Part shown: positions 11,201 to 64,000 of the stretch, piece by piece
How positions within the stretch are numbered: position 1 is the stretch's first letter
Layout of the letters: the number at the start of each line of letters is the position of its first letter
Assembly (NCBI RefSeq): GCF_041260155.1
Contig: NC_091931.1
Coordinates: 26,677,654-26,741,653, forward strand
Reading direction: 5' to 3'
Source: Ptychodera flava
Taxonomy: Eukaryota; Hemichordata; Enteropneusta; Ptychoderidae
DNA: 64,000 bases
Notes under the pieces: model-generated
Told to the model about the DNA's origin: nothing
Database searches by the model: none
Seen by the model: the letters and a program-made list of their open reading frames with translations, nothing else
Program-made: the position numbers and the translations under genes

Positions 11201-13822
11201 TGAGCAAAACTTACATGTACCTGTCTTAACTTATTACCGGGGGAAGATTGTCTTAATTTCAGTAATGCCACTGAAATGATGACAACATGACTCGAGATTG
11301 CTTACAAAAACAGATGTGCATGTGCCGAATATTTGAGCTTATAACAAAGTCTTGATGATTAAAGAAACAATATCGTCCATGTTACATCGTTTGGTTGGTT
11401 CCCCCTGCTGTTGACTCATCAACCAAGTAATCAAAATTCAGTGACCTACCGATGGTTAATATCGTGATTCAACAATTCTCTTGCACACATGCATAGATCC
11501 CACCAAGAAACTGGACTGGGAACGAGTCTTGGATCGCCAGACAATGCAGACCAAGTTCCCTTGGATGGTGCAGTTTTTGATAATGGGTTGTATGCTTGCT
11601 CTCGGAATTGCTTGCCAGGTAAATACGCATCGCAGAAAATTTTGAAACATATTCCTTATTTGGCTGATATAGTTCGTAAAGATGGCGAAGAAGCCACGAG
11701 TTGATGTTTTTTGTGCCACTTTAGCAGCTCCCTGGTCAATTCTTGCATTCTAAATTATTTTTTGCCAATATTGATTTACCACTGTCTTGTAGCTCTCGTT
11801 GTGTTTAGTCGACGTGGCTGCTTCTTTAGCGTATAGCTCTTCGCTCAATGGATATTACGAAATCTGCCTCTCATTCGATAGTTGCTTTCTTTTCAGAAAT
11901 CTGGATTGTCTGTCGTGATAGCAGCGAAACTTGGCACTTTATCTCACCTAGATCCACCGCTGATGGTGTTTCTGATTACTTTGATCGTTTCCTGTATGTG
12001 TGAAGGTCTTGGTAACCCAAGTGTTGTCATGGTCATGTTGCCGATACTGTCAGAACTGGTGAGTATGGCAACATGGAAGTTTCGCTGTGCCAAAGTCAAA
12101 AATACACGAAATCAGGCGAAACATCGGACTGTCCTTTATATGGAAAGTGACACTCTTCAACCAAAGCCCACTTTCTCTGAAAAATGTGATCTTAGTATTC
12201 CACCAATGTAAATATCTCGCGTTTGTAGCCGCGAAAACTTATCGATTTCAATAAATAGGTTAATCTTGTACAAATGGTACAGCCTTGAAAGTAGTAAGCG
12301 AGATGTACAGCTTTAGAAAGTGCACCATGTCTTGTAAAGAGACGTTTCTCCAAAAGTTGAAAGGCAAATACAAGGTACCAATAAACACAAAGCTGATTAG
12401 CTCCTTGAACAAGTAGTATCTTGCCCATGCGAAATGCGGGTCTCTGGGAGAATTGATTAACTCCGACCATTGTGCGAGTTGCTTTATCCCGAGGAAATAT
12501 TTGTTTATCATTAAAATGTTAAAATAAGAAGATCCGCTCGTGAAATATAAACGTCCAGGTTAAAAATGGTGCTAAAACCTTTATCTGAGGAGACCAATCT
12601 CTAAAGGAGGGGGTTAGCTTTACTAACTTTAAGTGTTCCCGCCAAAAATAGAAATGAAACCGTCACGGAAGAAAACTATCCAATGCCCTTATGTGTTTGT
12701 GACATCAGATTGCTAAGCTACGGCCATAGTATAACTTGCCTTGATCCTCAAACACCCCTTCACGAAAAACATCTGCATTTACTGTTTACACTGTCAGAGC
12801 AACAGGCGTCTCGTTTTCACATTTATCATTCAATCTCTCTTTTTAGGCAGAAAGAATGCATCTGAATCCATTGTATTTCATCGTTCCAATGGTCCTTGCC
12901 GCGTCTTATGCGTTTATGCTTCCTGTGTCGTCAGGTCCAAACATTATTGTATTTGCCTGTGGTAACCTGAGAGTTCATGACATGGTAAGTTTCTTGAACA
13001 CAATAAGCTCATAAGTTAATATTTGTGACTTATGATAAACTGGTTCACCTGGTGTATTTTCTTCTTTCTCTTCTCATTGTTCGTTGAACAAAAAAGTATC
13101 AGCACCGGAAACGCAATTCGTCGAGCAATATAACGCAGAACAATAATGTTGCTTACAGATGAATTTTTGTCCAGACCTGCATTCAGTTGTCAACAATACA
13201 CAATCGAACATTGCACATATACAGGTCCTGTTTACAAGTAGGACACCAGGAAAAATTGTTTTACAGAGGAGCAAAAAGAACATAAATGATGGGAAATACC
13301 TAAACAATAATGGCTTATGGGACTTCAAAAACGGCAAGACATACTTCGATGGTGACGAAGGTTCACCAGAGTCTTTACAATTGAATTGAGATAAAGTTAT
13401 ACATTTTAAGTCACACGATACTGAGTCATCAGAATGAGCTCATACAGTGAATTTTACAGTGATCATGTAAGTAGGGGGATTAATCATCGTAAGACAGCGT
13501 TGAAATATTATATTATAAAATACGAAAATATGAGCAAGAACAATTCCGCAAATTGTTATGTCATTTTCCGAAAGGAACAAAATGTCTTATTGATCTCAGA
13601 ACTTAGCTATTAAACCGTTTTCGTGAGCATAGAACACGGTATGAAAGTTAAACTTCCTGCTGCATATTTTATTTTTTCCAGATGAAGGCTGGTTTTGTGA
13701 TGAATTTGTTCTGTCTAGCCATTGTCAATCTGTCAACTCATACCCTAGGGGTATTGATATTCGATGTGCACAACTATCCTGACTGGGCGCCATCTCTCAA
13801 TGCCTCTTCATCGACTCCATAG
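2206..13822 (+). CDS. SLC13-like sodium/anion (dicarboxylate or sulfate) cotransporter, divergent, 13 exons
   Basis: Predicted exons: 2206-2322, 4878-5143, 6534-6660, 6943-7032, 7525-7772, 8734-8850, 9175-9291, 10272-10376, 10931-11025, 11497-11618, 11897-12058, 12847-12984, 13682-13822. They sum to 1845 nt (614 aa plus TAG) and all phases agree. Family members are about 570-620 aa plasma-membrane carriers with two helical hairpins and two Ser-Asn-Thr motifs that bind Na+ and the anion. Recognisable blocks include KWNLHERLAL (exon 2), MWMMNTGTTAMLLP (exon 3), LDWERVLDRQ followed by FPWMVQFL (exon 10), VMLPILSEL (exon 11), NPLYFIVPMVLAASYAFMLP (exons 11-12) and a C-terminal NAS glycosylation sequon. 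Both SNT motifs and the usual GTAPN loop are altered, so substrate and coupling are uncertain. Intron 3 has a GC donor. The exon 4 donor is chosen by phase (TGT/GTGTAA); the stronger GTAAGT two bases on would break the frame. No stop interrupts any exon, so this is a gene rather than a relic. Confidence 0.9.
3709..4036 (+). mobile_element. MITE family A, copy 1 (SLC13 intron 1)
   Basis: The ends are GCGCCTCGAGG on the left and GAGGCGCGTTCTACCTTA on the right. The interior carries the family marks: a TTTTAAAGCTCTT block, ATGGCGGC-TATTTTGAAT, AAATATCGGTAAAT and TTATTTGTTTCTCTAG. Six other copies occur in this window. No protein is encoded, so it is a non-autonomous inverted-repeat element. Confidence 0.8.
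6004..6386 (-). mobile_element. MITE family A, copy 2 (SLC13 intron 2)
   Basis: This is the clearest copy. It begins AAGGTAGTATGCGCCTC and ends GAGGCGCATTCTACCTT, giving near-perfect terminal inverted repeats of about 17 bp. It lies in the opposite orientation to copy 1 and carries a local duplication of GTGTTAACTCTATGGAGAAAA. It ends about 150 bp before exon 3. Confidence 0.88.
10403..10584. repeat. CAGTATGT / ATGT compound microsatellite
   Basis: Octamer units CAGTATGT grade into a pure ATGT tetramer array. It begins about 26 bp after the donor of SLC13 exon 8 (10376), inside intron 8. The three overlapping MYVC-type open frames across it are repeat artefacts. Confidence 0.97.
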
Positions 13823-16615: not shown

Positions 16616-17128
16616 GCACACAAAGAGGGACCAAAAGGACATTTTTCAGCGAATAATGGATTCCTCACAGTCTATGTTACCTTTATTCCATGTATGTTTG
16701 TGTATACTTTACGTATACACATTCACTTCTCAATATTGATGTCTTGAGCAAGGTCAAATATGCTTGAAGTTGCAATCATTCATTGTCCTACATTACTGAA
16801 ACCGGCTATGTCGGTGTGCTGTTAGTGTATAAAGAATACGAACACTATTTGAAGGTTGTTTTCCAGAACTTCATTTTTGGAACACCTCTGTTACATATTT
16901 TACAAATATGTTCCCTCTTCGGACAAAGTCAAGTACTGCCATATGCGTTTTGTAATAAGAAATATATACCTGTCCACCGTATAATTACACGAACTTATTG
17001 GACCCTTTTACTATCAGTGAGTAACATATATAGCACATTTACTTTTTATATCAAACTTTTAACCTTAATAAAGGGAGCAGAAGCAACATTCTTGCGTCTA
17101 TCGAATTTGTTGCATTCATTTTTGTTTC
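16613..17128. other. Intergenic, nothing recognised
   Basis: The open frame 16783-17178 runs into the adjacent MITE and has no recognisable protein signature. Confidence 0.4.
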
Positions 17129-17315
17129 AAGGTATACTGTCACCTGTTCCAATTTTGCTACAGTTACCATGGAAATAAAAACTCTAACCAATCACAGATT
17201 TTGAGCGGGTGGCCGCTTTTTTAAAACAGCGCCGTCACATGGGCATTTTGAATACCAAGGAACACCCCTTTGACCATATATGGGCATATTTAGATTACAG
17301 GTGACTGTATACCTT
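17129..17315 (+). mobile_element. MITE family B, copy 1
   Basis: Ends AAGGTATACTGTCACCTG and CAGGTGACTGTATACCTT form terminal inverted repeats. The interior has AACCAATCACAGATTTTGAG, GGTGGCCGCTTTTT and GGGCATTTTGAATACCAAGG. A second copy in the opposite orientation lies at 63745-63932. Confidence 0.85.
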
Positions 17316-25278
<7,963 letters not shown>

Positions 25279-25520: not shown

Positions 25521-28500
25521 TTAGAATCTGACTCCGCATCTTGGTCCGTAATATTGCGCGCGGCATCTACAGATGGGATGACCGCCGTCCAGGTAACATG
25601 TGCCACTGTTGCTGCAATGGTTGCTTGGACAAGGCACAAGATCACAGGTTTCGTAGGAACACTGGCAGCTTTCACCGAAATAGCCCCCTCGGCAGAGGCA
25701 CACGTGTAAATTGTTCGGTACGTGGGTTCTGCACACTCCGTCATGCCGACAGTGGTTGTTCGATTCAAGACATTCGGTAAACTCACACGATGTTCCGTAC
25801 GTACGGGCAACACACTCACAGTACGCTGTGTACGTTCTGTCTCGTATCTGTAAACAGGCATTTTCAAAAAAAGGAGAATTATCAACAAATAATGACAGAC
25901 GTTGCACTGATTGGGATGAGAGCAATTCTTCAATCTGTATTGAAATATTACATTTCCAATAAGACTCGAAGAATTGCGGTATTTCCCATGCATTTTTCGA
26001 ACGGTGTGCATTTGTTTCTTTGACCTTGGGGTCAAATTCAAATGTGTCTCTCACCTGTAAATTGCAACAATCTCAAATGGAAATGTTTCTGGAGCATATT
26101 TCTAGCAACGCGAGCTAACTTTGGTGCCCTACGCAGATTAAAAAACTTTGCGTTCCGCATGGACACCCAAAAACGTTGAATGGCAAATCAAAACATTACA
26201 TATCCTACCTGACAAATCCCGCCGTTGTGACATACGTGATTAGCGCAGGGGTTATAGGTCAGCGAACAGTCATTAGCTGAAAAACAGGAATCAAAATGAA
26301 AAGAAGTAAATTTATCATTGTACTGGAAGTTAGTTTTAAATCGTAATGATTTATGACCGTCTAGGAATGCTTATAATTATAGCAATATGATTTATGAATC
26401 GTGATCGACATCCGTAGGGTATAAACAGGGATTTATCAACATAAAAATCACCGATTCATCAGGCTGCTATTTATGGTTGTATAAAGTGTCACATACCGTA
26501 AAATCCAGGTGGACAAATGCAATGGTAACCACTGAGGGAACTATCTATGCACGTCGCACCGTTCTGGCACGGTTGGGAGTGACACCCCCGGGTATGCTCC
26601 TCGACCAAGCCCTCTCCTGAAAGAACAACGGATATGACGTGGCTAATGGTATCAGCTCAATGAAACGTCCTTACAAGAATCATTAGACTCAATGGTCGTA
26701 ACTCTCTGAACCACAGAGGGCCATAATGGATGTGAGCCTCTAATTATAGAGGACGACCATGCATGTGACATCCTAAATTGTAGAGGACCACAATAGTTGT
26801 AGCTAAAAGTAACTTTGAAAGTGGAGAAACTATTCATCCAATCAAACAGGGAAAATATTGATTCTTTAATCAATTGCGGCAACAATATCGAATCGGAAGA
26901 CGTCTTGTTATGACATCATATGTGAGGCCGATAGCCCTCTTGTCCGCCTTGTGATTTGTCATTCATTGTATGTTACCGGAACACATATATTGCCTTCTAT
27001 CATATAATCTCTGCCTTTTGTGTAAACAAACCCACAATTACAAAATCTGTAACATTTATATAAGGTGCTATTCTGGTCTTCGATTTTTAATAGAAATATA
27101 AAACCAGAGAAAAGAAGTGAAAAACGGAATTCTTTTGAAGTTTGTTCAGCTGTTCTATCACAGCAACTTCTGCAAGTCAGGTGAAAACGTGTTTATTCTC
27201 GTCCTGTTTCGGTAATTTCCTGCTCTGTGCGCGGAGTGCAGTGCTCGATGCAGTATCGCAGGGCAGCAGAACAGTATATGAATAGAAATAAAAACACACC
27301 AAGTATCCCATGCATGAAGCTCGAGTAAGACATCTCTTGTGTACTTGATATGTTTTTTAATAAATGTATGTTTACATATTATATGTAAACGGACATAAGT
27401 CTACAGATGTCTCCGTAGAAAATTAGACAAGGCAGAGCTTTAACATAAAGTTCTTCAGCTACAAAGTTATGATATGTGTTTCTAAAGTTTCTTGCGTCTC
27501 TTCAGACATTCTGTGTTATCTATGACATTTCAAGGCCAAACAAGATATGCAATTCAAATACACTAACATGTCCTTTTCCTTTCTATCGAGTACGTCGCAA
27601 CGACACGCTTTTGTAGACTTGCAACTAAAGTCCTGTTGGTGACGGCATCTGCGTTCGTTTGGTCGTCATTTGTATTTTTTGTGTATGGATGGTTTTACTT
27701 GAAGTCATTTTTGACCGTGTAAAACTGAGTATGGAAAAGAAAATACGGCGACGACTGTGAAAGTCGTGGTGTATATTATCTCAAGTGCACGATTAAATTT
27801 GATTAGTCACAACATAAGGGCTGCTTATTTTTAGTGCAAAAGTAATACAGTAATACCTCTGTCCTCCAAAACCAACTCTGACCGTACATCGTGTCGATCA
27901 AGGCAGACGACATGATGCCTGCAGAGATGCGGAGAGAGACTTTGACAAGTGGAAGTAGCAAATTTCGGTGACAATACGGTACTTTTGGCGTACGTCTGTC
28001 GTTATCGGAAGACAGCGTGGCTAATATGTGTAAAATGCGCCAATGGCGTGTTTCAGACACGAAAGTGATGATGACATCATTAATTTTTATCTATTTTATA
28101 AAAAATTGCCAATCGGTCACGTGGTCACATTGGAGCCTTATTCAGCAAGTGTACCTGACATGCTGTAAATTCAAAAAGAAAAAATCAAAGAGATTAGTTT
28201 GTGGAACTAAAGTACATGTGTTCAAGATCTGTCGGTCACAATATGATATATCGACATATCAGTATACATAAGGTAGAAAATTAGAGTCAATATAAAAATA
28301 GGAAATTATGTTATTGTTGAAATACTGATGTATCTGTTTCTATTTTTCAACTAGATACATCGTTTGACCGCGCCACGCCATACATTTGTCTGAAGATTGC
28401 AAGATCAATGAAACTCAAGAAATATGTTATTTTGCACCAGAAGTAATTTATGTTCATACACCCAACCTGAGATAAAAAATTATTCATTTATCCATTCACT

Positions 28501-29752
28501 TAATAACCGTCTTTTTGTGTATGTCATTTTATAATTACTCTCACTTAAATAAGGTGGAGCAGTATACTTTCAATCGCTGCAGGATTTACATCACAGGGTT
28601 TACGATTGGCATTATTATAATTTCTATCAAGGTAAACAGATTGTTTCACTTCCTCAAGGCTTACCCTGTCAACACTTTATGATATATAGTACTTAATAAT
28701 TGGGATATTTTATTACCACTTGCTGATAGCCATGTATATAGCGTGTTCGTCACTCTCGGTCATGCTTATTTTAGGTTTGTTTGTTGTTGTTGTGTTGTTG
28801 TTTTATTTTGGGGGGTCGGTTTTTGGTTTTTAGGGTTTTTTTGTTGGCTATTTGGTAGGGCGTTGGTAGGCGTTTTGTTCTTTTTTTTCGGAGGCGCTAA
28901 GTTGCAAGGGGTTCAAAGTAGTAATGTTGAATTTCACCTCATTTTTAACCATCCTCCCCACCCCCCAACAAAGATCTATCGGTGGATCCGAAACTTACGA
29001 TGAGCTTAGCGCTGACATGCAAAGAGTGAAGGAAACATATTCAAGACGAAGCTCACTATAAAGCTTATGGAGTAAATAAAGTTTTCGGGAATTTTATTTT
29101 CCCTATAGAGAATTTCGGCCATTTTGAATTTCAAATATCGGTAATAAAATATAAGGTTATTTGTTTCTCTAAAGTTAAAATTTGTACGGTGACCCCCCCC
29201 CCCCTTCGATTTCTATTCTTTATTTTAAAAGAAAATGGTTGAAAGTTTGCTTGAGAGAAGTTTGAGCAAAATTTTGCCTTTCATTTCTGAGACTAGAACT
29301 ATACCTTCAAATAGATTTTAATACCATTGAGCTGATTTGTGACCCGAATAGCGCCGAGTCCAGGCTAGGTTCACAAGCAACGCTGTCCCTTTGTAAATCA
29401 TTCGACACAACCAGCGTCCAGATCTACTTTGCACAGCCCGGTTACGACAATAGCATGCGCACAAAAACGTTGGACACGTACAGTTTTCGGGTACAATCAG
29501 CATTAGCCGTTCGAGTGTCACTCTAGTGGCACTGACACTCCATCAAGATATGACTACACGCACCATGGTAATTGTGTAATTATACTGTGTTTGCTCGAAA
29601 TGCAGCTGAAAATAATAATTTTTTTCTTTCTCTATATGGCAAGAGGTAGCAGCTTGGTATGACTTACCTGGGTCAATATTAGCAGACGACTTTAGGGCTG
29701 AAAGACAAATTATCCCGATGACGAAAATTCGGGGATCCAATATAGGTAACAT
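25521..29752 (-). CDS. Secreted protein with four EGF domains, paralog B (199 aa)
   Basis: Exons in transcription order: 29752-29668 (signal peptide), 26616-26497, 26276-26209, 25847-25521 (stop TAA). Intron phases 1, 1, 0 and the sizes of the last two exons (68 and 327 nt) are the same as in paralog A. The signal region reads [19 protein letters not shown]. The four EGF units are in the same order, and the last exon is 84/108 residues identical to A by direct comparison. Paralog B has a slightly longer linker before EGF1. A secreted extracellular role is expected; no named ortholog is recognised. Conservation is strongest in EGF3-EGF4 and weaker in the N-terminal region. Intron 1 contains MITE copy 4. 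Confidence 0.9.
26640..28990. other. EGF gene B intron 1, left part
   Basis: No additional exon recognised. The open frame 27803-28060 on the minus strand has no domain signature and no supportable splice context. A T/G-rich low-complexity tract lies at about 28770-28890. Confidence 0.4.
29000..29310 (+). mobile_element. MITE family A, copy 4 (EGF gene B intron 1)
   Basis: Shares TTTTGAATTTCAAATATCGG, GGTTATTTGTTTCTCTA, GTACGGTGACC and AGTTTGAGCAAAATTTT with copies 1, 5 and 6. A C run at about 29193-29204 interrupts it. The right end is degenerate. Confidence 0.75.
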
Positions 29753-32139
29753 TTATGACGTAATGCAGAGACAGGTCAGACGTTTGTATATTGTAGATAC
29801 CTCTGTTCGAAATAGGGTTCCACTTACGTAGCTTTCTTTAAATTCTCCCGGTAAAGTTTGCGTCAAAGACAAACAAACACGATGACTGATTAGAAAGGCG
29901 TTGAGTGTTTTGGGAGGAACTTGAGAAACCCAGCCGGCCAAATTGAAGCCTCGAGGACGAGAATGCTGCATGCGTTTTGCAATGTTTACCTGCTCTAAGT
30001 GGGTGCACGTCGGTATGCACGATAAGGATGTCATTATACAGCCTCGCTAATTCGTCCGTGACTGTTAGAACCATCACCTCCGGATTTATTTTCAACCTAT
30101 CCAGCTAGCGACCAGCGCCAGTTGGTTAAATGTTATTGACAGTCTACAGAACCGGTCTATTAGAAGCCGCGTAGGCCCTATATCTGTACGCGCAACTATC
30201 CAAAAAGGGTATTTTTATCACGTAATTCATTTTTTCACAATCGTTTTTTATACCTTGCACGGCATCGCCACTTAATAATTTACCATTTGATTCAATTTTC
30301 TTTCCATTTTACCGAATCAAAGGTAATATTTGATTCGCCTTGGGTGATTTTTTACTTCGATTGATTTTTGTATGCGCTAATTCTGTTTTTTTTAATTATC
30401 ATTATTGGTTCACTACTGCATAATTAATTTTTTAACATTTTACAGATTGGATGGCACGCTATTATAACAAGGTAATTGCGTATAGACCGGACACACGATA
30501 GAGCGGCTTCATTGAAGCAATGCACCCAGGAGTGCAATGGTCCCGCAGAGAAGTCTATCCCGGTTATTCCATTCTGGTGTCGAAATTAATTACATTATTC
30601 ACCAAGTAACAGAGAGGAACACTCCGGCCTATGTTGGAGCTCACATATTTGCTGTGTAGGGATTCTCTTAGGGGCAAAACATTTGTTTGGAGAGGAGGGA
30701 CCAGGTTCTGATCAAGGTTAATGTGTCTGAAATACATGTACTTGACTCTTGCAAACTGGCATACTAATGAACCACGACACAAATTTTGTGTATTCGGCCA
30801 CATAAAATCTATCACACGGCATGTTTTCTAGGGATATTTTGTGTTTTGGTTTATTTGCTTGTGGAACGTCAAGACTTTTTTTTCTGGCCTCTCTCGCACA
30901 CACACGCACTCGCATGCAAATATTGAGAGTAACATGTGCAGTATGTCTTTTTATCTCTCATTAACACTTTTTATTTATATTTGTTTCTTGATAGACCATG
31001 AACACGATTGGAACTTATCTGGGAGAATAGAATACTGTAGAAATTCTGGTTTAATCAGCAAACTTAAGCTCATCTACTTTTCTTCTTGTTTTGCAATTCA
31101 CTTGTTTTTATTGGTAATTTGTAATATTGCAACTTTCAGCTCTAGGGCCACCTAACACTTTTGATAAATTTGAACAATTAAAAGATCCTACTCCTCCTAA
31201 TTAGTTCCTATCGTGTTCATGTTAAAGATACAAATATTGAGTTTACACACACTTCCATCACAATGGTGTAACACCTTACAGTGATTTATACAAGCTTGCC
31301 GTAACGTCACTACCGAATTATGCTGTTGTCCCCGGCCATGCATAACCCTACTCACTAACGTGTTTTTCTGGGACACCCTTGGCTGGTTCATCTGAGAGAG
31401 GTGTTGAGCTTTAAGCTGTGATTATCCAGCATACTTTAGGTGACAATGAAGCAGAACATGGAGGAAAAAGAAGCAATAAGTAACAACAAGACCTTTCATT
31501 ATTGATAGATTTGGGGTCAATCATGGGGGGTCCACAATTTGGGCAACTGAGGAGTAGCCTTAGATAACAGACTGGGACTATGCATTGAATGCCAAAAAAA
31601 TTTCCAATATTTAACAAGTATCCTCGATTTGTTCTCTGTCTGCCTGTTTAAAGACAAAGTTTCTCTCTTGTTGTCGCAATCAAAGCACACAGGAATGTTC
31701 CTAAGCAATCTGTCAACAAGGGCCCCAGACAAAGCCCAGCATTTTCTTTTCATATAAAATAATTCTGTGTAAAAAAATACTTCACTGGGCAGACCTACTT
31801 TAACGCTAGAAGTATAACAGATGTGATGGTGAAGCGGAAATACAGAGCAAAGAAATTATGAAGAAAGTGAGCACGTACGTGTATTTGTACTATGTATGTA
31901 TATAGTACAAATGTAACTGTATACTGGTATGTATATACTACATATGTTTATGTTGACCATGATGGTGACAGTATTGTTTGCGTAGGACACTAAACTGCTA
32001 TTTGAAGACACAGCTACATGACTGCCTTGCGACAGATAGATATTTTCAAAGTTTGGATGGTGATTTCTGTCCAATATTCTTGGGGCAGTTTAGATTTGTT
32101 CCTTCAAACTTTGCATTTACTAAAATGACCCGTTCGTCT
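29753..32139. other. Intergenic: EGF gene B promoter side and VPS36 3' flank
   Basis: Both neighbouring genes read leftward, so the left part should hold the EGF gene B promoter and the right part the VPS36 3' UTR. Several open frames of 60-100 codons exist, but none has splice or motif support. No repeat family was identified. Confidence 0.4.
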
Positions 32140-41100: not shown

Positions 41101-44100
41101 GTGTAAAATGACAGTAAAAGCAAAAAGTTGCAAAACGATTTAGCCTTCTTCCGAACACACAGAAATTATGACACGATATGTTTAAGAGAAGATAATACTC
41201 CTAACTGCATTGTAATCAATACCTGACTTGACTGCTTGGTTGGACTTTGTTGTGCCGGTATGCTCTGATGTTCCCAAGTCCTCCTCTGCAACTGGTCTGA
41301 CAAACACCTGTGAAACTACAATACAGTGAAAAATAATCAAACCATAATTCACATTTCAGATCTGCTCCAATTTTTTCTATGATTGGCATAAGGGGTAGCG
41401 CCTTGGCAGCACCCACAGTGTTTGTCTCCGTCTTTTTAGTGAAATTTTCAGTTGAACTTTTGGTGTTCCTGTCCACGTTTGTCCTGTGTACATGTGAATG
41501 GGTCAAGAATCTACTGGGTAGGCTGGATGTGTTACACCGTTGGACATTTCAAGAAAATCTGAGTTGTTTTCTTGGCTTCAGTTCGTCAACTAGAGGTACT
41601 GTCTGTGTGCATGTTCTCTGTACATCAGAATATGCTATTTGCATATAATACAAACATGTTGTTGGCTATACGGAATGTGGTGATCAATAACCCACTATTG
41701 AGCCGATTGGAGCCTGACACCTGGCAGAGATTGAGGCAACTACAGCTGTGTAAAATTCCACCAACCAAGAGAGGGAAATCATTTAAAGGTCACAGACCAC
41801 AGCCAATCCCTGTCAGAATATCATACCAACGTAAAACCTGTCAACTTCTACAAACTCGTCCACAAACCTTAGTTCAATTACGTAATTCTATGTACTCTGT
41901 GAAACCGAAGGTACTACCTAATGTAATGGTGTGCAATGCGAGATCCTTGGTAAGAAAAGTTGATGAACTAGCTGCAGTATGTGAAATGAATGAGATCCAG
42001 ATTGCTGCAGTAACTGAAACCTGGCTTCATGGAGAGATTACCAACAACACTGTTTCTATTCAAAATTACAAGTTATTTCGGAAAGATCGTTCTCAACAAC
42101 GTGGAGGTGGTGTATGTTGTATATTCATGATTATTTACAACCACAACCACTGGAAAGTCAGGGAGATATTGAATCCATCTGGTGCACAGCTCGCCCTTTC
42201 TGGTTACCGAGGAGCGTATCTCAACTGCTCATTGGCTGTATTTACCATCCACCAGGAGCTAATGAAAAACCAGTAATATCTCATGTCATTGACACTGTTG
42301 ATATGATAACACGTAAATCACCAGAGACAGGTGTCATTATATTGGGTGACTTTAATCGACTGAATGTGAACAATATTTTGACTAGTTGTCGTTTAAAAAA
42401 ACAAGTTGTAAATATTCCTACGAGGGTCAATGCAACCTTGGATCTCATATTCACCAACCTTAGCCATTTGTATAATCCCCCCTTTTCTGTTGGTCCATTG
42501 GTTCTTCAGACCATTCAATGGTGGCGATGAAATCTTGTCAAATTTGAAAATTCCGATAAAAAAGGTAAATATCCGACCCATGAAAGATTCAAGTAAAAGG
42601 GAATTTGCGCAATGGATCATTAATAATGATTGGTCTGATGTTTTACAAAAGCCTTCTTGTGAGGAAAAATTTAATTCGTTTGCAACCTCTGTTTCCACAG
42701 CAATTGATAAATTTTTCCCCCCAAAGCCCCTGCGTTTTTCCAGTTCTGATAAACCATTCATAACTGCCTCGATTAAGTATATGATAAGATGCCGCCAGAA
42801 GGCTTTTAGAAACCAAAAGTCGACATTGTATAGATACTGGAGAAATAAGGTAAATCGGGCAATTCACACAAACAGACAGAATTACTTTGCTGAGAAGATT
42901 AAGTCTGCATCTGCAAATAGTAAACAGTGGTGGAATGAAGTTAACAGGATATGTGGTCGTAGGAAAAATGGTACCATCCCAGAAATTGAGGTTAGCGGCG
43001 AATGTTTAAGTGGTGTTAATCTAGCCAATGCTATCAACAATCATTTTGTTAATATAACAAGGACTATGTTCCTTAAACTATGATGAGCTTATTCGTAATC
43101 TCCCAAATAGTAATTCCCTTCCGATTGTTACATACAATGGTATTGTCAACTTATTAAAATCATTACCCTGTGCCAAAGCTAGTGGCCCTGACCAAATTTC
43201 AAATAAATTGTTGAAGGAATTTGCACATGAATTTGCTGTTCCCCTTGTTGATATCTTTAATTATTCCTTTCAAGAAGGTCAAGTTCCATCAAAACTTAAG
43301 GAGGCCATTGTAATTCCTCTAGCTAAAAAACAACCACCCTGCTTCCCTTGATGATTTTCGGCCGATTTCTCTTACCAACAGTGTGGCCAAGGTAATGGAG
43401 AGTTTGATTGAAAAATGGATCAAACAGGAAGTAAAGGATAAGATAAAAAAAACGCAATTTGCAGGTGCTAAGAAATCGTCCTCAACAACTGCCTTGATAG
43501 ATATGATACAGACTTGGCTCGAGCAACTGGAAAGTCAAAGAAATATGGTTAGAATTTGTTACCTTGATTTCAGTAAAGCCTTTGATAAGATTGACCACAA
43601 CATACTTCTTCACAAATTATCAAAATTCGGTATAAATAGTAACATAATTAAATGGACAGCACATTTCTTGTATAATAGATCTCAAAGGGTGAAGATTGGT
43701 GATAGCTTTTCTTCCTGGCAAACAATACGTGCAGGTGTTCCACAGGGAACAAAATTGGGCCCAATTCTATTTATGCTCATGATTAATGACATTCCTGATT
43801 GTATTGGGGGATCAAACTTTATATTCATGGATGACACCACGGTGTCAGAATGTTTCATTCCAGTACTCCTACTAATTCGCAGATGCAGACAACATTATCA
43901 CACATTGACCAGTGGGCTTCAGTAAATAATATGAAACTAAATCCAAAAAAATGTAAAGAAATGAGGCTATTTTTTGGTAAGGTACCTCCTCCTTTTCCGC
44001 CATTGTTACTAGGCAACAGTGTCTTAGAAATCAAAGAGAATTTTAAATCTCTTGGGTTAATCATAAATAACAAACTAAAATGGGATAACCATGTTGATGA

Positions 44101-44831
44101 TATGGTCAAAAAATCCTCACAAAGGTTGCACATTCTCCGTGTTTTGTGCAGATTTGGGGCTACAGCTCATGAGCTTAAACAAATTTATATCTCATTGGTT
44201 AGATCAACCTTAGAATATGCCTGTACTGTTTGGCAAGGTGGTCTCACTGAAAAGAATAGATCAACGATTGAAAGAATCCAGAAGAGAGCACTACGAATTA
44301 TTTATCCATTTTTGTCTTACAGTGAATCACTTTCTCTATTACAGCTAGACACACTCGAAACTAGACGTCAGAAAATTTGTAAAAAGTTTGCTGAGGAAAT
44401 CATAAAACCAGACCATAAACTAAATTATCATATTCCCCCTAAATCAGGTCACGGATATTCGACAAGGAATAAAAGCTTGGTTAACTTTAAAATCCGCACA
44501 AAACGTAAAGAATCAAGCCCGTAGTCTACTGCATTAAACTACTCCAGAGTTCATGATTCTCTGTCCTGTGTTGAGCTGTTGTGAATGTTGGTTTTGTCAA
44601 ATTTCTGTTGTGTCTATTTGATGTCTTGTCGTCGTTGTTGTTTTTTAATTTTTCAAATTCTTTTAGGGGTTTTTGGTGCTCGTTTTTGAAATTACCAGTT
44701 GATGTCTTGCTTCCTTGGGAGGTCTTTTTCTTGTAGTTTTTTTTAGTGATGTACTGTAAATTTTTTATTGACTGTGTTGTAAACTCATTTTATTTGACCA
44801 TTTTGGGTCACAATTTGAGTATTAATAAACC

Positions 44832-44863
<32 letters not shown>

Positions 44864-47800
44864 TCACTATGAACATTTCAAAGACAAGCTTTGCCTCATA
44901 ATGTGTATTGTAATTTTAAAGAAAATGTTTCTGAATTGTCGATCACTGAGTAGATTGTAATCTTCACTGCCTCCCTTTCTCTATCTCTTGCCTCACAAAT
45001 GAAAAGTTTGCCGTCCATTTGAATGACAAAAAATGCATCATATGTCCTTATCTCATTCATGAAAAAACAAAATTGTCGAAAATGTGACACATTTTCTATG
45101 AACACAGTAATATGAATGAAAATATTGCTTGAGAGGAAATTTTGAATGCAACTGTGTATGCTCAACAACCATGAATATTACAGAACTGGGACAGTAAAAT
45201 TTACCTCTGTCTCGCCAGCTGCCTTGAATGATAATTTGATGTATGTATTCGGGCTGTACATGACGGGTCCACCCTGTTTGTTAGGAGCAGCTGGATGGAG
45301 GTAGAGTATTATCTTGGGACTGGAAGGGGAAAAAGGGGAAGAAAATGAAAATTTGCCAGACTGTCACTGCTGTAATTTCAATAATAACAAAGTGCCCATA
45401 ATGATCATTATGTATGGCCAGTAACTGTCTCTATAGAAAGTATACAGGGGGCCAATTTTTTTCAAAGTTTCCAAAGCATTCACCCAGCTCATTGTTTGGC
45501 AAAGCAGGACAAACATGTACATGCAGTTCAACAATTCCCATGACAACATGGCTTAAGGCCTGCCTTTGGCAGGATAGATTGAATAATTTTCTCACTGGCA
45601 TGAATTTTGTTGATCTCAACTGTAGCCAAAATTCAAGTTAAAAAAAAATAACTATCTAATGGGCCAACTCTGGAATAAAATGTTGGACTGAGACTAATAC
45701 ATTGTCATATAGACCGTCAACAGTCCCCCGGAATTCAAACAGGCCATGGTATTCACAAAAACCATGTGCAGAAAAGTATATAGATCTATGTTGATTCATG
45801 TGCGCGTGTTTATCAACAAGTATTTGTATGTACTGCTATAATAATCTGCAGTATCACTTATCCATAGAATACTGTAACACTGCCTTTGGCACTCGTGTCA
45901 TGCCTTCGGCACTATGCCCCCATTTGTGCAAGAAAACTATACCAATAATAGAAAAATTTTGATATGCATTGACGAGATGACAAATGGAACTTGTGCATGG
46001 CAGTTTGATCAAACGAGTTGATCCAAATATAGGAAACCATTATGTCTTGGCCTAGGTCAGCTTTTGGAGAAGGTTGACGATATCTCTCCAAATTTTCCTA
46101 CTCAATTCATCCAAGTACTACCAATAAATAAAAAGTGTCAATCCAAACTTGCCTTTTACCAAAGCTAGACGATTGCTCTTCGACAAACACAACCTGTGAC
46201 AGATGCATTGAGATGTTGTAATTCTGAAATGAACAACAAAATTAAAAGAGGTGAAATACAACAGAGAAATCTCATAAAATCACATGAAGAATGAGCATTG
46301 AGAAATGCTACTTTCCAACTTCTATACATACATGCACAGGGTTTTCTCTCGACTGCGTAACTTCGCATTTCAAACCACTTTCTGCCCTTTAAAAGTTATT
46401 GACAGTGCGAAAATCGCGCACAGAACACAGCAAGTAAATACGCCCAGACCCAAGCGTGTAGTTTAGTGACCTGTGAATTTGCTGTTGTTTCTGCCCCTAA
46501 AATGTCAAGTCTGCCCCCAATTTTTGATGAATGGGGCAGAAATTGCCCCTTCAGTGAACAAACAGAGAAAACACTACATGCATACATATGTTATTACCAT
46601 AATAAGGTAGAATGTGCGTTGGGAACAGATATTAGACTTTTTAAACTTCTTCAATACTCTTTTGGCCTATCACTTGACGGGGTTCATTTTGAAGCTTGCG
46701 GAGTAAATAAAGTGTTTGTCAGTTTAGTTTTGTGAAAATCAGAAATTTTGTTTTTTCCATAAAGACTAACACAGGGATGATGGCCATTTCGAATTTCAAA
46801 TATCGGTAAATATTTGGTGATTTGTTTCTCCAGTACAAAACTTTGCATGGTGACCCCAAATCATTTTTTGATTTTGAAAGGGAAGATTGAAAGTTTGTCT
46901 GAGGAAAGTTTGAGTAAAAGTTTATGTATAACATTTTCGTGGCGCAAACTGTGTGAAAGAGGAAACTCTTCATATCTGGGATTGAGCACGCCTATGAACA
47001 TTACCCGTCCCCATTGTCTGCAATCCTTTACAATCAGCCTCTCTTTGATCTACTTACCGGTCTCACTGTATCTTTCCATATCAGTCTGTAATTTGTAAGA
47101 ACCAGATTACCTCTTTCAAAGCCCGTCTGTTTAAAAAAAAAATCAAAAAAAAAGAAAGCCTGAATAAGACTGATTAATAGTTGAACAAATAAATAAAGTC
47201 TTGACAGTTCAATTGTTTCAGAAAGTTACAGGGGCCCCCCCCAAGAATACTGTTGTTTTTATCACGTGCATTCAGTCTGTTGTTCTGTGGGTGCGCCATT
47301 TATACCATTCTAAAATCTCAAGGTCATGTGGTCTGTACACCTAATGTGTTCTATTTATTACATTTAAGAGTTTATAAATGCCTGGAACCCTTTACAAAAG
47401 TGATTGCAATATATCAATTTGTGCTGAACGAATGGAAGCTATATGATAGGTCTATTGCTATGCACAATATATTCCAGCATTCCTTGTGTATATCAAACAT
47501 TTTGAAATGGTGGCTGTACCAAGACTTGTGACTCTGCCAAAGCAGCTTCATGTAAATGGAGGTGGTAAAGCCTTACAGAGAGTTGAAAGCTACAAAACTG
47601 GTGAACTTTGAACATGCATCAAATGCTGACCTCGCTGCACATTTGCTCGACATTTATAAGCACACTTAAACTTGCCAAAGCAGTTCAGTGACTCCTTGAA
47701 AATCGGTAAAAGATGAAAATTTACAGCAACAAGGCTTATATTTTATTCAAATGAATAATCCAGATCATAAATTTTTGAGACTGGGTGAAGACATAATCAT

Positions 47801-54477: not shown

Positions 54478-54842
54478 AGAATTCGCCTCGGGGACAGATA
54501 TTTGAACTTGAATTCCTACAAATATTTTGTGATCTACCACAGTGACTCATGGGGCTAATTTTAAAGTTTACGGAGGGAGAAAACCCTTTACAATCCTATA
54601 TAGTTTTTCGAAAATCGAAAACTTGATTTTTCGCATAAAGATAACACTGGGATGGCGGCAATCTTGAATCACAAATATCGCTAATTGTTGGGTAATTTGT
54701 TTCTCTACCAACAAAATTTGCACGGTGACCCCTGATTTTCATTCTTTGATTTGTTTAGACTAAGAGAACGGTTGAAGTTTCATAAAGGAAAGTTTGAGCA
54801 AAGGTTTAAGTTTTTCACTGTCGAGCCGCATAATACCTAAAG
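54478..54842 (+). mobile_element. MITE family A, copy 6
   Basis: Starts GTAGAATTCGCCTCGGGGAC and ends GTCGAGCCGCATAATACCT. Interior marks include GATGGCGGCAATCTTGAAT, CAAATATCGCTAAT, GGTAATTTGTTTCTCTA and GCACGGTGACCCC. The orientation is the same as copies 1, 4 and 5. Confidence 0.82.
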
Positions 54843-55742
54843 AGGTAACGCTTCAACTTCTGATGATAAAATGAAACTATATTCCATCCAGGAAACAAGT
54901 ATATTGTTTTTTCTCTCTTCACAAGTACGTCGATACACAAAGTATTAGACTTGTACACCCAAGTTGTGTGTTGTGACAATATATTAGCTTTAGATCCGTC
55001 GTTAGAGGGCGCTCTCTACGGAAGCGTCCTCGAGCGACGGATCTTTCAGTCTACCCAACTTGTAACGTTTTACGTAATGAATACGATGCTGTACACAAAA
55101 AATCAGTTGTCAACAACCACACTGGCATATCACACTGATGACAGCTCTGTTGGCGAGTTGAACTACATGCGTTTCAACACAATTTTGGGGTAGAACAAGA
55201 AAGTGTGTAATTTTATGAACAGAACAAAAATAAACACCCTAAGGTTCTGGTTTGTACAGCCGAATCAGGTGACTTGAGAAGCAAATTGGTATGTATGCAA
55301 ATCATAATAGTATTAGAACGGGACTATTTGTTTATTAGCACATGTGCTTCACAATTTGTATTTTTATAATTTTGCGTGTTTTATCCGTAACAGAATTATG
55401 CACAGTATGTTATCTTTCTGCTATAGCTGCCCGTTCTCCTTTTCAGCCATGATTTTGTGGACAGACCGTGCTGTAGCCTTCTGTACCATATTTCATCAAC
55501 CGTAGACAACCACCCCCTCTCCTGTTTATGCATCAACATATTGTTGGCCAGACCCTTATTCAGAGGATGACAACACGAGCTCTATAGCCCTTCTGTCTTC
55601 TGTCAAGGCGCACTTGTAAGGGGTTAACAACCCAGAATTCGAATGGGCTCAAAGTACTGTTAACAACAGCCAGCGCTCAGAAATCAGTAATTTAAATGGA
55701 TTTGTTTACACCGTCGTCACGCGATCTTTTAGGCGCACCACA
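54843..55742. other. Intergenic, nothing firm
   Basis: Includes a short inverted repeat, GATCCGTCG (about 54992) with CGACGGATC (about 55036), around a GAGGGCGCTCTC word. No gene was recognised. Confidence 0.4.
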
Positions 55743-57900: not shown

Positions 57901-59081
57901 ATACATCCTTGCGTCTACTGTGAGACTCAACTGCTGATCGAATGCACAATTCAAAGGCACAAGGCAATCGTTTAATTCAATCACTGAAAAAAATAAACCT
58001 TCATTCACGTAGTTACTACAATCTGTCCAGAATCAAGTCTGATGAGTCGACATAACTCAGGGGTATCAGCAGACTACATTAATATTCCCGCACTACATGC
58101 AGGTGCTCACAACGTTCAACTTCAGTGACAGTGTGCAGAGTTTCCAGTCAGCACTCGTATAACTAGTCTTGGTGGTTGAGTTAAACTTATCGAAAAACTT
58201 AGGCAGTGTAAATTTTTCCATCAAAAATCCAGAATTCATATAGCCGAGTCACTCGCTGTTCGATCAACCTGCTAGTCAGCCGCCTAATTGAACTTTTCCG
58301 GTTCGTTTTCATAAGCTCCCGCGGGAAACCGCGAGAACTGAAGGATGTAGACAATGTAATCGCAACGCTTACAGTCTGAAGATTTAGGTTATATATTTGA
58401 TAATGAAAAGGGTTGCGTACCAACATATCCATAATTATGATATTAAATAATTCACTTCTTAGTTCAAAAGTCTACCACCACCACAGTATTTTGAACATTA
58501 CATTTTCGGAATGCTGATATTGTTTTTATTTTGATAACAACAAACAATTCCACTGAAGGATATTCATCGTCGATACATTGAAATCCCCAACTTGACATGA
58601 TACAACACACAGTAGATTAAAATTACAGTTCACTAGTGTGGGAAATAAGGTTACAATAACACTAACACAACTAGGTGTTTATAGCCAATGGAGCTCACAA
58701 ATGTATCAATAAACATATCATGTAAATTTATCTATGAATAAATAAATTAGTCTATTAACAATAAATAAATTTTACAAGTGTTTAAATGAATGTTTAAAAT
58801 TGGAAGCAATTCAGTGAGAGAACTAAATAAGGAATCACTTTCGGAACTGAGTCAAACCGTAGAGATACAGTTCCTACTTTAGGCACAAATAGTCGTTTTA
58901 GCATGCAATACATATCTTTGGTAAATTATAAAATGCATGATTTTTCAGCCATCTGATTGTTTTATAGGAAATGAACAAAGCTTGTACACTTCTGTGAAAC
59001 TAACCATGCTGACAGTGTATTCTTCAATGTGAATCGAGTCCATTTAAATCACTAACTAGCTGGCTAGCACATCCAGAAACA

Positions 59082-59087
<6 letters not shown>
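57901..59087. other. 3' flank of the VEGF-like gene
   Basis: Downstream of the minus-strand VEGF-like gene and likely to include its 3' UTR. A TTTATT near 58525 is AATAAA on the minus strand. No other gene was recognised. Confidence 0.4.

Positions 59088-59143
<56 letters not shown>
59088..59143. repeat. (CT)n microsatellite
   Basis: CT run of about 55 bp, starting 115 bp downstream (in transcription) of the VEGF-like stop codon and so probably in its 3' UTR as (AG)n. Confidence 0.95.
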
Positions 59144-59257: not shown

Positions 59258-60177
59258 CTAATGTATAATAGGTGCAGCCGTCAACATTTGGCTCTTTTCT
59301 TTACGCTCTTTACGTTCCTTTCTTCTTCGGCGTTTCTCATTTTTGTCCTCCTCCTCCTCCTCGTCATCTCCACGACGGCCCCCGTTCTTCCGACGTCGTT
59401 TTTTCTCTCTTCTCCTCTTCCTTCTATCTTTCGACTTCTTCCTTTTCTTGCTCGGCGGTGTTGGACTGTAAATAGGAGTTGCAAAGGATGTATCTTTGCT
59501 TACTTCAATGTACGTATAAGTGGATGTTATTTTTATCGAGATCGAACGATTCTATATTTTAAAAGGATGTTTGTGTAATCATGCATGGCGTGGTTCATTG
59601 GGAAATGGCTGCTATTTATAGTAATTCAATCATATGCGTTGAATGGTGAGGTTCCGGGGCATATATTGACATCACAAGAGAAATTTATCCTGTGAACTGT
59701 CATGTTACCAAAAATAAGCTCTGGGTTATTTTTGACTTGATTAGCCCATGAAAAATTGATATCCGACTTGTCGAATATTGTTTTAAAAATCCCGGCTACT
59801 AGTAAACCAAAAAACCTAACGTCAACTGTGAAAAACACAAAAGTTTACGGAGAAGCAACATCACGCTATTTGACCTAGTTTTACGATAATTATGTGAAGA
59901 ATTGAAACCTTAGGTATGCTTTAAAATATCAGTTTTCACAACTGTTGACATCTGATGAATAAAGCTTTCCGATTCAACAGGGATAAATCGATGATACCCT
60001 TTGTATGTGCATACCATTAGTTTGTGTATATTGTTGTTGTTATTTGTATGTATATAAGTCTTAGCTTGTTTGTTTTTATTCTGCTTTATCTGTGTTTTGG
60101 TGATACTTTAACCCATGACCTTTTTGATAACCGTTTATTCTCTAATATATTAAATCTCCATCATCACTATCATCATT

Positions 60178-60251
<74 letters not shown>

Positions 60252-63200
60252 TGTAGTGTATCTCTCTCTCATTTGCTAATTACAGTAAAATCATTTCACG
60301 TATTCAGTAATTTGGAGCAATGAAATTCCAAATCAAATTAATAAAACAAGCCCCTTTACTGGCGAAATAGCTGTAAACATTGATGATATTTTCAGTATTC
60401 TTGTTCAAGAAAAGAAGAATTACAGTTACTGATTTTCCTCCCTGTATAGTGTCATGTTTACATGGCTTTGCTACAGGACTGTTGCTTTGCCAGCACAATT
60501 ACAAACAGGTTACGTTCAAGTTGGTAATGAGGCTGAACATGATTTTGAAGTTGTAACAGGACACTGTACATCAAAATCAACAAAATAGTGGAAAATAAGT
60601 ACATAGTTACGGCTTATCGAGCTGTGTTTGTAATTGTCGTCGTTGTTGTTGTAACCTCTGTAGGACTGAGCAATATAATTTTCATCATAAACTTGATTTT
60701 AACTCATGTAATGACCTTTGACACTGTGAGAATGGTCTCTCACCTGGAGCAGCCGTTTATCTCGTCACCTTCACCACTGCATGGTTTCGTTCCAAGATCA
60801 CTCCCACAATAGCTGCACATACACGCGGTGTGGTTTACAGCCTTGATACTCAAATGCTTCTCACCAACCGGGTCGGCATCTGAAATTATAACCTGAAAAC
60901 ACAGGGAGTATATTAATCAAATACAGGTATTCCGGCCATGGCCGGCTCGATTTGGCTCGTCTTTAACGCCTGACACCCAAGATATGAATGAGTAATGCCA
61001 TTGACTGTTCCGATACCGGTTGAGTTACTCGTAACAGGGTATTGCAAACAATATTCGTCTAGACGTTATGATAAATAAATGACATGCTCAACAGTGTCAT
61101 GTTTGTGCGTATATATCATTTGTATGCTATCTCCGTATTTCAAAGACAGAAGTTATTGATGTTATTGTTTTGGGGTATTTTCTTGTCTCTGTTTTTCGTT
61201 TCCCGCTATATTTTGTGTTGTCTCTTACATGGTCACATTCACAAACAGTTCAACTCACATTTCTCAAAGAATAAATCGTAACATTTCAAAGGAAATGATG
61301 TGTAGCCATTATAAGCACAAACAAGGCCTTTAATCAATAATTCCTGTACGAATGACGTCATCGGATCGGTGAAAATTGCAGTGGAATGGTTTTCCTCGAT
61401 CGGAAGACCAACTTACCACTTTGTCAACAAAGTCGACGTCTTTCGGCACGCATCGGGTGTCGCCGATCCCCTGCATCGGGCAACACCCGCCGCAGCGGTG
61501 CAGCAGCACGCACTGCGGGAAAGTTTGAACGTGCGGCTGGATGGTTTCGCCGGTCGACAAGCTGCTGCTCGGGTCCCGTACCAGCTCGTGAACGTTGATG
61601 ACCACCGGAAATGGTTGACAGCTGGACAGATTATACTCTTTTTGGACTGCGCGGGGAAAGGAAAAGGATATCACTTTATGAATTCTGTCCATAACTATAA
61701 AACAAATGCGAATCATCAAAACGTTGATGTAGTTTGCGCCTCAAAGGTGAAAGACTTGAACTTTTTATCAATGAAACTTTCAACTCTTCTCCTCGACAAA
61801 TCAAGAATAAAAATTAGGGTCACCGTGCAAAACTTGGTACTAGAGAAACAGTTACCCTATACATTTATCGATATTTGAAATTCAAAATGGCCGTCAGCCT
61901 GTGCGGGCAAATGCTTTTTTTTCTAACTAAGACGGCGATTTTCTCCCGTTCCAAGAGCTTTAAAATGAACTCTCACAAACGATAGACAAGAAAGGTATTG
62001 GGAAAAATTGACAGTCCGAATATTTATCTCTAAGGCGCTACCTCCCGTTAACAAATAAAAAAATAACACGATTGGAACTAATTTGGGATAATTAGATCTT
62101 TATATTTTTTAAATTTCTCAAAAATGTTAGGTGCCCTATAGCTGAATGTCTCAATATTACAAATTACTCATAAAAACAAGTGTGTAACGTGAAAAGAAAA
62201 GCAGATGAGCTTACATTTACAGATTTTTTAGACATTACTTCACCATCCAATTATCCAAAATTAGTTCCAATCGTGTTAAATATATGAAGAGGGACACCGA
62301 GAAAGTGTCGTATTTTGCATTACCATGGCAAGACAAAACTGGCGTCGAGTGATTCTTTTTAGCAGAACTGATAAATTCTGTCAATGATTTCGTTGTATTA
62401 ACGCACATAGTTAACGGAAATCTATCGGCTTGGACAAAACTTGATACAAATTTGATGATATCTTATTTGTTACTTAATAAACATCAAGAAGGAAAGTGTG
62501 TGATTCTCTTTCTCAAACAAAAATTGACGAAAGCATGCCCGAGGACAGTCTATACTTCGCCTCATTGAAAATGTCGTGATTTACATAAAGGCAAAACAAA
62601 AAATATAGTCCCCGGAATTTTCTAGCTCACCAACTGAGGTGGTAAGTGATTGTTTTGAAGAATCGTGCATAAATAATTTTTTAATGAAATTCGAAGTTAA
62701 TAAAACAGATACACAAGTGCTGATATAAAAATTCATTATAAATGGTATAATTTACAATTTTTGACATTTTTAAGCATTTTCGCACTTCATCTGGTTTCAA
62801 TAGTGGCCCACTCCCTAAACACATTCAGCTCCAAATAGTTTGAATCGAGCTCCTTTATTTTGTATAGTAATTAAAAGCCCGGCCTCTATAGAGGAAAACG
62901 GAATAACAAATTGAGCACTTGGACACAAGTATTCAGCTTACACCCACTATAGAGATAGCCACGTTGATATCGATAACCTTAATTCAATTTACAACAATTA
63001 AATATAAGGTCATGTATAAAAAAGAAGAGTGTGACTCTGATTAAAGGTTTTTCAAAAACTTATTAGGCTCGGTCGGGGTTTTTTATTGTGGCAAAGTACA
63101 CTTTTTTCCCTTTCTTCATTCTTATGTCTTGCCATTGTTCAAAACACTATAGCTGTGAATAGTTCCACCATAACACATTTTCAAATTGGTCGTCGTACTA

Positions 63201-63552
63201 GATTGTCATATCACAACACAATACCAGTGTATGTATGTCCGTATGCCTGTATTTGAATGCCACCGAAGCTGAATTATCTCATCACATTTTGTTCATGGAA
63301 AATTAACCGTGTTCCAGATTAAAACAATGATTCATATATTAGTTTGATCCTGCATACATTTAAATAAAAATAAACACATGACTTTTGCTCTTTACCAACT
63401 ACTTTATTCGTCCGAACATAAACCAATGCTCGGGCATAAGCGCCTCTCCTTCTTTCAGAGGATCTGTGAAAATGCTGTGAATCTGTGTGTGCCAGTAAAG
63501 CCACACATATAGAATTCAAAAGTCGATGAGTATGGCTTGATCGATGGGACAT
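59258..63552 (-). CDS. VEGF/PDGF-family secreted growth factor with a highly basic C-terminal exon
   Basis: Exons in transcription order: 63552-63396 (tentative, signal-like LLNSICVALLA), 61646-61417, 60892-60744, 59465-59258 (TAG). Phases 1, 0, 2 fit, giving 247 aa with this first exon. The cystine-knot domain (about residues 62-155) has eight cysteines at 62, 98, 104, 107, 108, 118, 153 and 155, a spacing close to VEGF-A, including QCVLLHRCGGCC and NHTACMCSYC. Sequons at N58 and N149 may be glycosylated. The last exon encodes 68 residues of which 32 are Lys or Arg, with an acidic run DDEEEEED in the middle, and would act as a heparan-sulfate binding or retention tail. VEGF-family ligands bind receptor tyrosine kinases as dimers. 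Exon 3 ends AG/GTGAGA, so the next codon read into the intron is TGA. Whether this is VEGF, PVF or PDGF type cannot be settled. Confidence 0.85.
60158..60251. repeat. (ATC)n microsatellite (VEGF-like gene intron 3)
   Basis: ATC trinucleotide run with a few ACC and ATT units. The poly-His open frame on the plus strand is an artefact of this repeat. Confidence 0.96.
61737..62048 (-). mobile_element. MITE family A, copy 7 (VEGF-like gene intron 1)
   Basis: Starts GCGCCTCAAAGGTGAAAGAC and ends near AAGGCGCTACCTCCC. Interior marks are TCAAGAATAAAAAT, GTCACCGTGCAAAACTTGGTA, TTTATCGATATTTGAAATTC and AAAATGGCCG. It starts about 90 bp upstream of exon 2. Confidence 0.82.
62049..63395. other. VEGF-like gene intron 1, remaining part
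   Basis: AT-rich sequence. CACGATTGGAACTAATTTGG (62069) and CCAAAATTAGTTCCAATCGTG (62256) are inverted arms about 170 bp apart, perhaps another small MITE. No exon was recognised. Confidence 0.45.
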
Positions 63553-63744
63553 GTTACGCTGCAGCCGACTGACTGACTGTGAATTTCAGAGATGTCGGAA
63601 CTGGCCCGTATTTGAAGGCGATGTCACCAGAACGACGCATCAACGGCTGTTGTGCTCTCGTGTGTGAAATTATGGAGAGCTATGATAGGGAGAAATTTTG
63701 TAATGAGAGGGGCGCAAGGGTAAGGAAATATAACAAATTATTTA

Positions 63745-63932
63745 AAGGTATACAGTCACCTGTAATCTAAATATGCCCATATATGGTCAAAGTGGCGTTC
63801 CTTGGTATTCAAAATGCCCATGTGAGGGCGCTTTTTTTAAAAAGCGGCCACCCGCTTAAAATCTGTGATTGGTTAGATTTTCTCTTTCCACGGTAATTGT
63901 GGCAAAATTGGATCAGGTGACACTATACCTTT
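63745..63932 (-). mobile_element. MITE family B, copy 2
   Basis: Begins AAGGTATACAGTCACCTG, ends CAGGTGACACTATACCTT and is inverted relative to the copy at 17129-17315. TTTAA adjoins both outer ends, which suggests a TTAA-type target. Confidence 0.85.
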
Positions 63933-64000
63933 AAGCCGGTATAATTACTCTTCAGACCAAATAAACTTGTACAATCATGGAATATGAAATTTGCTGTTTA

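Follow-up and report, generated by a model that had tools for sequence, protein, structure and literature searches.

A PDGF/VEGF-family gene with a predicted separate last exon encoding a lysine/arginine-dense tail

Basic stretches encoded by exons of their own are described for both PDGF and VEGF-A in the accessible parts of the literature. Exon 6 of PDGF encodes a basic, 18-residue, Lys/Arg-rich C-terminal retention motif, which binds heparin or heparan sulfate and is optional by splicing in PDGF-A (PMC3072383). Exons 6a and 7 of VEGF-A are basic and bind heparin or heparan sulfate (PMC5979509, PMC7926383); exon 6a, used in VEGF145, VEGF189 and VEGF206, is a separate basic exon with heparan sulfate binding (PMC5979509, PMC2848586), and the bound VEGF-A forms are freed by proteases (PMC5979509, PMC7926383). 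An earlier note on the DNA studied here had started from the premise that vertebrate VEGF-A and PDGF use separate basic exons for matrix retention, and the available text of these papers says the same (PMC3072383, PMC5979509). In its accessible sections, an animal-wide survey of PDGF/VEGF factors relies on BR3P repeats to place invertebrate members, documents VEGF-A-like forms among echinoderms, lancelets and tunicates and calls this VEGF-A-like kind the shorter one (PMC10328876). No mention of retention, polybasic or positively charged stretches was met in those sections. Likewise, the accessible part of PMC6768484 contained no mention of basic or C-terminal parts, and that of PMC5721910 gave no intron phases.

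The stretch of DNA analysed, referred to below as the window, is 64,000 nucleotides long. As read from the sequence, its minus strand carries the 3′ portion of an animal gene of the PDGF/VEGF family, and most of the gene lies inside the window (Table 1). The span 59258..60892, to which the earlier note had assigned the gene, covers exons B and C and misses the main knot exon A (61646-61417). Introns of 524 nt (A-B) and 1278 nt (B-C) separate the three exons, and the joined A+B+C frame comprises 194 residues, the first exon excluded. Exon B ends in phase 2 with CTGCTCCAG, followed by gtgaga; exon C begins at 59465 with TCCAACACC, preceded by ...tatttacag, and its TAG stop occupies positions 59260-59258. 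The codon at the B/C junction is a Ser codon common to both exons, and the 68 residues of exon C are counted besides it. The B-C intron also contains a (CAT)31 array at 60159-60251, and a (TC)31 array is found at 59082-59143, in the presumed 3′ UTR.

Table 1. Features of the PDGF/VEGF-family gene and their coordinates in the window
Feature	Coordinates	Strand	Description
Exon A	61417..61646	minus	230 nt; phase 1 at its start, phase 0 at its end; encodes the beginning and the bulk of the PDGF/VEGF cystine knot
Exon A protein pattern	61417..61646	minus	SSCQPF...CVLLHRCGGCC...RCVPKDVDFVDKV
Exon B	60744..60892	minus	149 nt; phase 0 at its start, phase 2 at its end; final knot strand NHTACMCSYC, then a linker with two further cysteines
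Exon C	59258..59465	minus	208 nt, predicted last coding exon; 68 whole residues, to TAG
Charged core of the tail	59294..59449	minus	46 K/R/D/E among 52 residues; net charge +18; no cysteines
Acidic block DDEEEEED	59345..59368	minus	GAT GAC (GAG)5 GAC
Possible poly(A) signal AATAAA	58525..58530	minus	GT-rich GTGGTGGTGGTAG about 40 bases beyond; would give a 3′ UTR of about 0.75 kb
Intronic AATAAA	60134..60139; another at 60080-60075	minus	In the B-C intron; a possible end for a short transcript, or perhaps a chance match in AT-rich DNA
Candidate first exon	63396..63552	minus	MSHRSSHTHRLLNSICVALLAHTDS..., phase 1 out, strong hydrophobic stretch, weak donor (3.5 bits)
Rival candidate first exon	62631..62736	minus	MNFYISTCVSVLLTSNF..., phase 1 out, better donor (7.8 bits)

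The spliced protein matched the Pfam PDGF/VEGF domain (PF00341) over residues 39-102 with a score of 35 bits against a gathering cut-off of 27 (E 1.7e-8). The only other Pfam row at E ≤0.1 was CDC45, placed on the charged tail with an E of 0.09, far below the cut-off. Thirty-three distinct PDB sequences matched the protein at E ≤0.01; the best was VEGF-C (2x1w, E 9.4e-7), with VEGF-D, VEGF-A, VEGF-B and PDGF-B also represented, and exon B aligned with the PDB VEGF-C as far as CMCS. Eight cysteines, at residues 9, 45, 51, 54, 55, 65, 100 and 102, follow the PDGF/VEGF family order and by that order correspond to the canonical eight, six forming the knot and two linking the chains. Seven of them lie in the PDB-aligned stretch (residues 40-103), and Cys9, which is outside it, is assigned by order alone. 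Three extra cysteines (105, 114 and 124) are all located in exon B, and NxS/T sites occur at residues 5 and 96. By its domain and cysteines, the predicted gene product is a member of the PDGF/VEGF family, in agreement with the description of the gene in the earlier note as a VEGF-like factor. A second PDGF/VEGF copy was not found: among the 1693 window frames of at least 25 aa, phmmer matched only exons A and B at E values up to 10. In a collection of prokaryote genomes, none of the 47 pattern matches was confirmed as a relative at E 1e-3, and Rfam gave no match in the window at gathering scores.

The splice junctions were scored with general textbook donor and acceptor frequencies rather than with a model trained on this species. 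Among 401 AG sites on the minus strand between 57000 and 64000, the acceptor of exon A comes first, that of exon B second and that of exon C seventh; among 397 GT sites of this region and strand, the exon B donor is first and the exon A donor second. With a score of 2.8, the exon C acceptor is the weakest of the three (9.3 and 6.3 for the other two), which counts against the tail model. Between 60743 and 57330, three acceptors score at least 2.5, a threshold chosen after the exon C score was known; the one of exon C, which is in phase with exon B, is alone in adding more than three residues in frame, while the gain would be one residue from that at 59825 and three from that at 57329. Further on, to 50000, eleven more acceptors are listed, some of which lead into frames as long as 76 residues, for example 30 residues from 56491 and 76 residues from 52140, which also weighs against the model. 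The open frame of exon C extends back to 59551, with no ATG ahead of the tail; to be translated from an ordinary start codon, it therefore needs splicing to an upstream exon. At the level of the sequence, the frame, the splice ranks and the acceptor scan all support the predicted arrangement proposed before, a separate basic last exon joined in phase to the knot exons.

The whole residues of exon C include 32 Lys or Arg (17 R and 15 K) and 14 Asp or Glu, with DDEEEEED in the middle of the tail, and the translation reproduces the counts given in the earlier note. The charged core is built of a basic block of +18 (27 residues), the acidic block of -8 and a second basic block of +8 (17 residues). 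Among the 188 open window frames of at least 69 aa, that of exon C is the richest in Lys/Arg, with 33 in its best 69-aa stretch; next among the matches listed are RERERE frames on TC repeats, none with more than 26, and another reading frame of exon C, with 24.

Purine-rich DNA readily yields frames rich in K, R and E, which speaks against the tail model, and the basic frame may be non-coding or coding by accident, a purine-rich low-complexity tract in an intron or 3′ region, with the real protein ending elsewhere, for example at ...INGCSR* or in an unrecognised exon. We consider this rather unlikely. It would account for the 85% purine content of the 156-nt core (59449-59294), for the second exon C frame being also open and basic (24 K/R in 69), for the TC/AG array nearby, for the comparative weakness of the exon C acceptor and for the intronic AATAAA sequences at 60139 and 60080. 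Dinucleotide shuffles of the core, however, averaged 22.5 K/R and 33.5 charged residues of 52; taking any frame, K+R reached at least 32 in 64 of 20,000 shuffles, and K+R+D+E reached at least 46 in none of the 20,000, so that the charge excess goes beyond composition. In addition, the pyrimidines of the core shun codon position 2 (10, 1 and 13 at positions 1, 2 and 3), an equally empty position being found in 12 of 20,000 shuffles. Nine of the 17 Arg codons of exon C are CGN and hence do not come from an AG repeat, and the in-phase acceptor, the sole useful one as far as 57330 at the threshold used, also argues against a non-coding tract. The shuffle excess and the placement of pyrimidines indicate that the tract is codon-structured and that purine richness is not the whole story; the exon C frame looks to be under selection for charge. 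The acidic run, with five identical GAG codons in a row, may have been born of replication slippage. As a (GAG)5 run is easily made in this way, the acidic block says less about function than the basic parts do.

The domain, exon anatomy, frame and charge excess are shown at the level of the sequence, and the explanation that we consider probable is a cystine-knot growth factor with a separately encoded basic tail for matrix or glycan retention. The likeliest role of the tail, by analogy with PDGF exon 6 and VEGF-A exon 6a, is matrix/heparan-sulfate retention. The product would be a secreted, probably dimeric cystine-knot growth factor, which, judging from its family, would act on a receptor tyrosine kinase of the VEGF/PDGF type. 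Its cysteine-free tail, with a net charge of +18 (+36 per dimer), would anchor the factor to sulfated glycans close to the cell that makes it, at the cell surface and in the matrix, and trypsin-like, plasmin-like or furin-like cleavage at the many basic sites of the tail could release it. Against retention, the 14 acidic residues partly cancel the charge, and furin-type cutting could strip the tail ahead of secretion. The heparin-binding consensus XBBXBX with uncharged X has no match in the tail; loose forms of XBBXBX and XBBBXXBX have 16 and 8 matches, which means little in so basic a sequence.

If the cutting took place during secretion, at RRKRR/RRRR, the tail would be a propeptide that serves folding or trafficking, like the C-terminal propeptide of VEGF-C and VEGF-D in another form, and the mature factor would be soluble. 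The tail does contain three furin-like RX[KR]R sites, two of them overlapping, and according to the accessible text of PMC7926383, VEGF-C and VEGF-D arise from precursors, with intracellular cleavage by proprotein convertases stated for VEGF-D. However, such sites occur in any K/R tract by composition, and similar basic tails of PDGF and VEGF-A are taken as retention motifs in the available parts of PMC3072383 and PMC5979509; a propeptide appears unlikely.

A more far-reaching proposal makes the gene a lineage-specific VEGF/PDGF whose tail originated independently of the vertebrate exons. The basic-acidic-basic order (+18/-8/+8) would then be a tunable matrix tag, its acidic run serving to mask or adjust the binding of glycans or else to bind calcium or mineral, and intronic polyadenylation would give a soluble short form ending in ...GCSR. 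This proposal is a doubtful one. Among the literature matches listed, from a collection covering a minority of subscription papers, none described this tail or a VEGF tail with an acidic run. That the tail directs an intracellular form to the nucleus or nucleolus is very improbable: the tail tracts KKRKK and RRKRRREKKRRRK resemble classical NLS tracts, but the cystine knot and the two NxS/T sites point to the secretory route.

Unspliced exon B reads ...INGCSR*, with the stop as the first whole intron codon; together with the intronic AATAAA, this early stop means that a tail-less soluble form, like short PDGF-A, would be easy to make. Downstream of the exon C stop, other poly(A)-type signals are AATAAA at 57222 and 57011 and ATTAAA at 57976. 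At the 5′ end, where the signal peptide would be encoded, 18 candidate first exons with a donor score above 2 were found between 61700 and 64000, five of which end in phase 1, as exon A needs. Both of the candidates kept (63552-63396 and 62736-62631) begin with a hydrophobic stretch, and the true first exon may lie beyond the window.

The region upstream of exon A also harbors repeats. One copy of a dispersed repeat, 69-78% identical and present at seven places in the window, lies at 61700-62000 in the intron upstream of exon A; the others are at 6007-6191, 46770-46896, 54650-54836, 21728-21952, 29116-29254 and 3937-4024. MITE-like inverted arms of 34 nt, 94% complementary and 147 nt apart, occupy 62064-62097 and 62245-62278, and a relative with 77% identity is located at 31001-31217. 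A 193-base repeat occurs at 63730-63940 and 17126-17318 in opposite orientations with 92% identity and is probably a young mobile element. Elsewhere in the window, duplicate EGF-like exons (RDRTYT.YCEC...) on the minus strand, at 19289-19669 and 25521-26072, are 77.5% identical over 320 bases; Pfam EGF_2 and EGF are above their cut-offs in the former and below them in the latter, and the pair looks tandemly duplicated within a different gene for a secreted protein. On the plus strand, membrane-transporter frames at 7486-12211 matched CitMHS weakly, below its cut-off (E 0.0066 and 0.0017), and possibly belong to an SLC13-type carrier. Remains of a non-LTR retrotransposon with several overlapping frames extend over 41563-44524 on the plus strand, with a reverse transcriptase match (PF00078, E 3.6e-23) at 43323-43925.

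The intron phases 1, 0 and 2 around the knot exons agree with those of human VEGF-A exons 2-4 and with the VEGF-A exon sizes 52/197/77. Exon C, as predicted, adds its K/R-rich stretch downstream of the knot as an exon of its own and in this respect is like VEGF-A exon 6a, which is described as a separate basic exon following the knot exons in the sources available to us. The tail differs from VEGF-A in having no cysteine and no CX10CXC, there is no cysteine-rich heparin domain in the model, and exon B bears the three extra cysteines. VEGF-C is the nearest PDB sequence to the knot; however, VEGF-C, VEGF-D and cnidarian VEGF-C-like factors carry C-terminal BR3P repeats, CX10CXCXC, in the accessible sections of the survey (PMC10328876), whereas the predicted three-exon model contains neither CX10CXCXC nor CX10CXC and so lacks the BR3P character of VEGF-C/D. 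The CX10CXCXC pattern was found in none of the 1693 window frames of at least 25 aa, a search in which a repeat split over exons would be missed; CXCXC was found in nine of them, three on the minus strand, the nearest at 55113-55238, about 4 kb beyond exon C. The shorter, VEGF-A-like kind would fit the gene described here. A further likeness is to the long form of PDGF-A and to PDGF-B with their exon 6, where, according to the available descriptions, a cystine-knot factor is likewise extended by a K/R-rich C-terminal stretch on its own exon. That exon has 18 residues, compared with the 52-residue charged core found here, and no acidic run is named for PDGF in the accessible part of PMC3072383. 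If transcripts confirm the model, it would add a basic retention exon in an apparently invertebrate PDGF/VEGF gene. Such a case would bear on how old this use of a separate basic exon for matrix retention is within the family, and on whether it had several origins. The earlier note had called so dense a tail with a central acidic run unusual and perhaps lineage-specific. In the PDGF/VEGF family, there is nothing out of the ordinary in a K/R-dense tail by itself; its length is unusual against the 18-residue PDGF exon, and what is new here is a longer, charge-patterned version of a known basic module.
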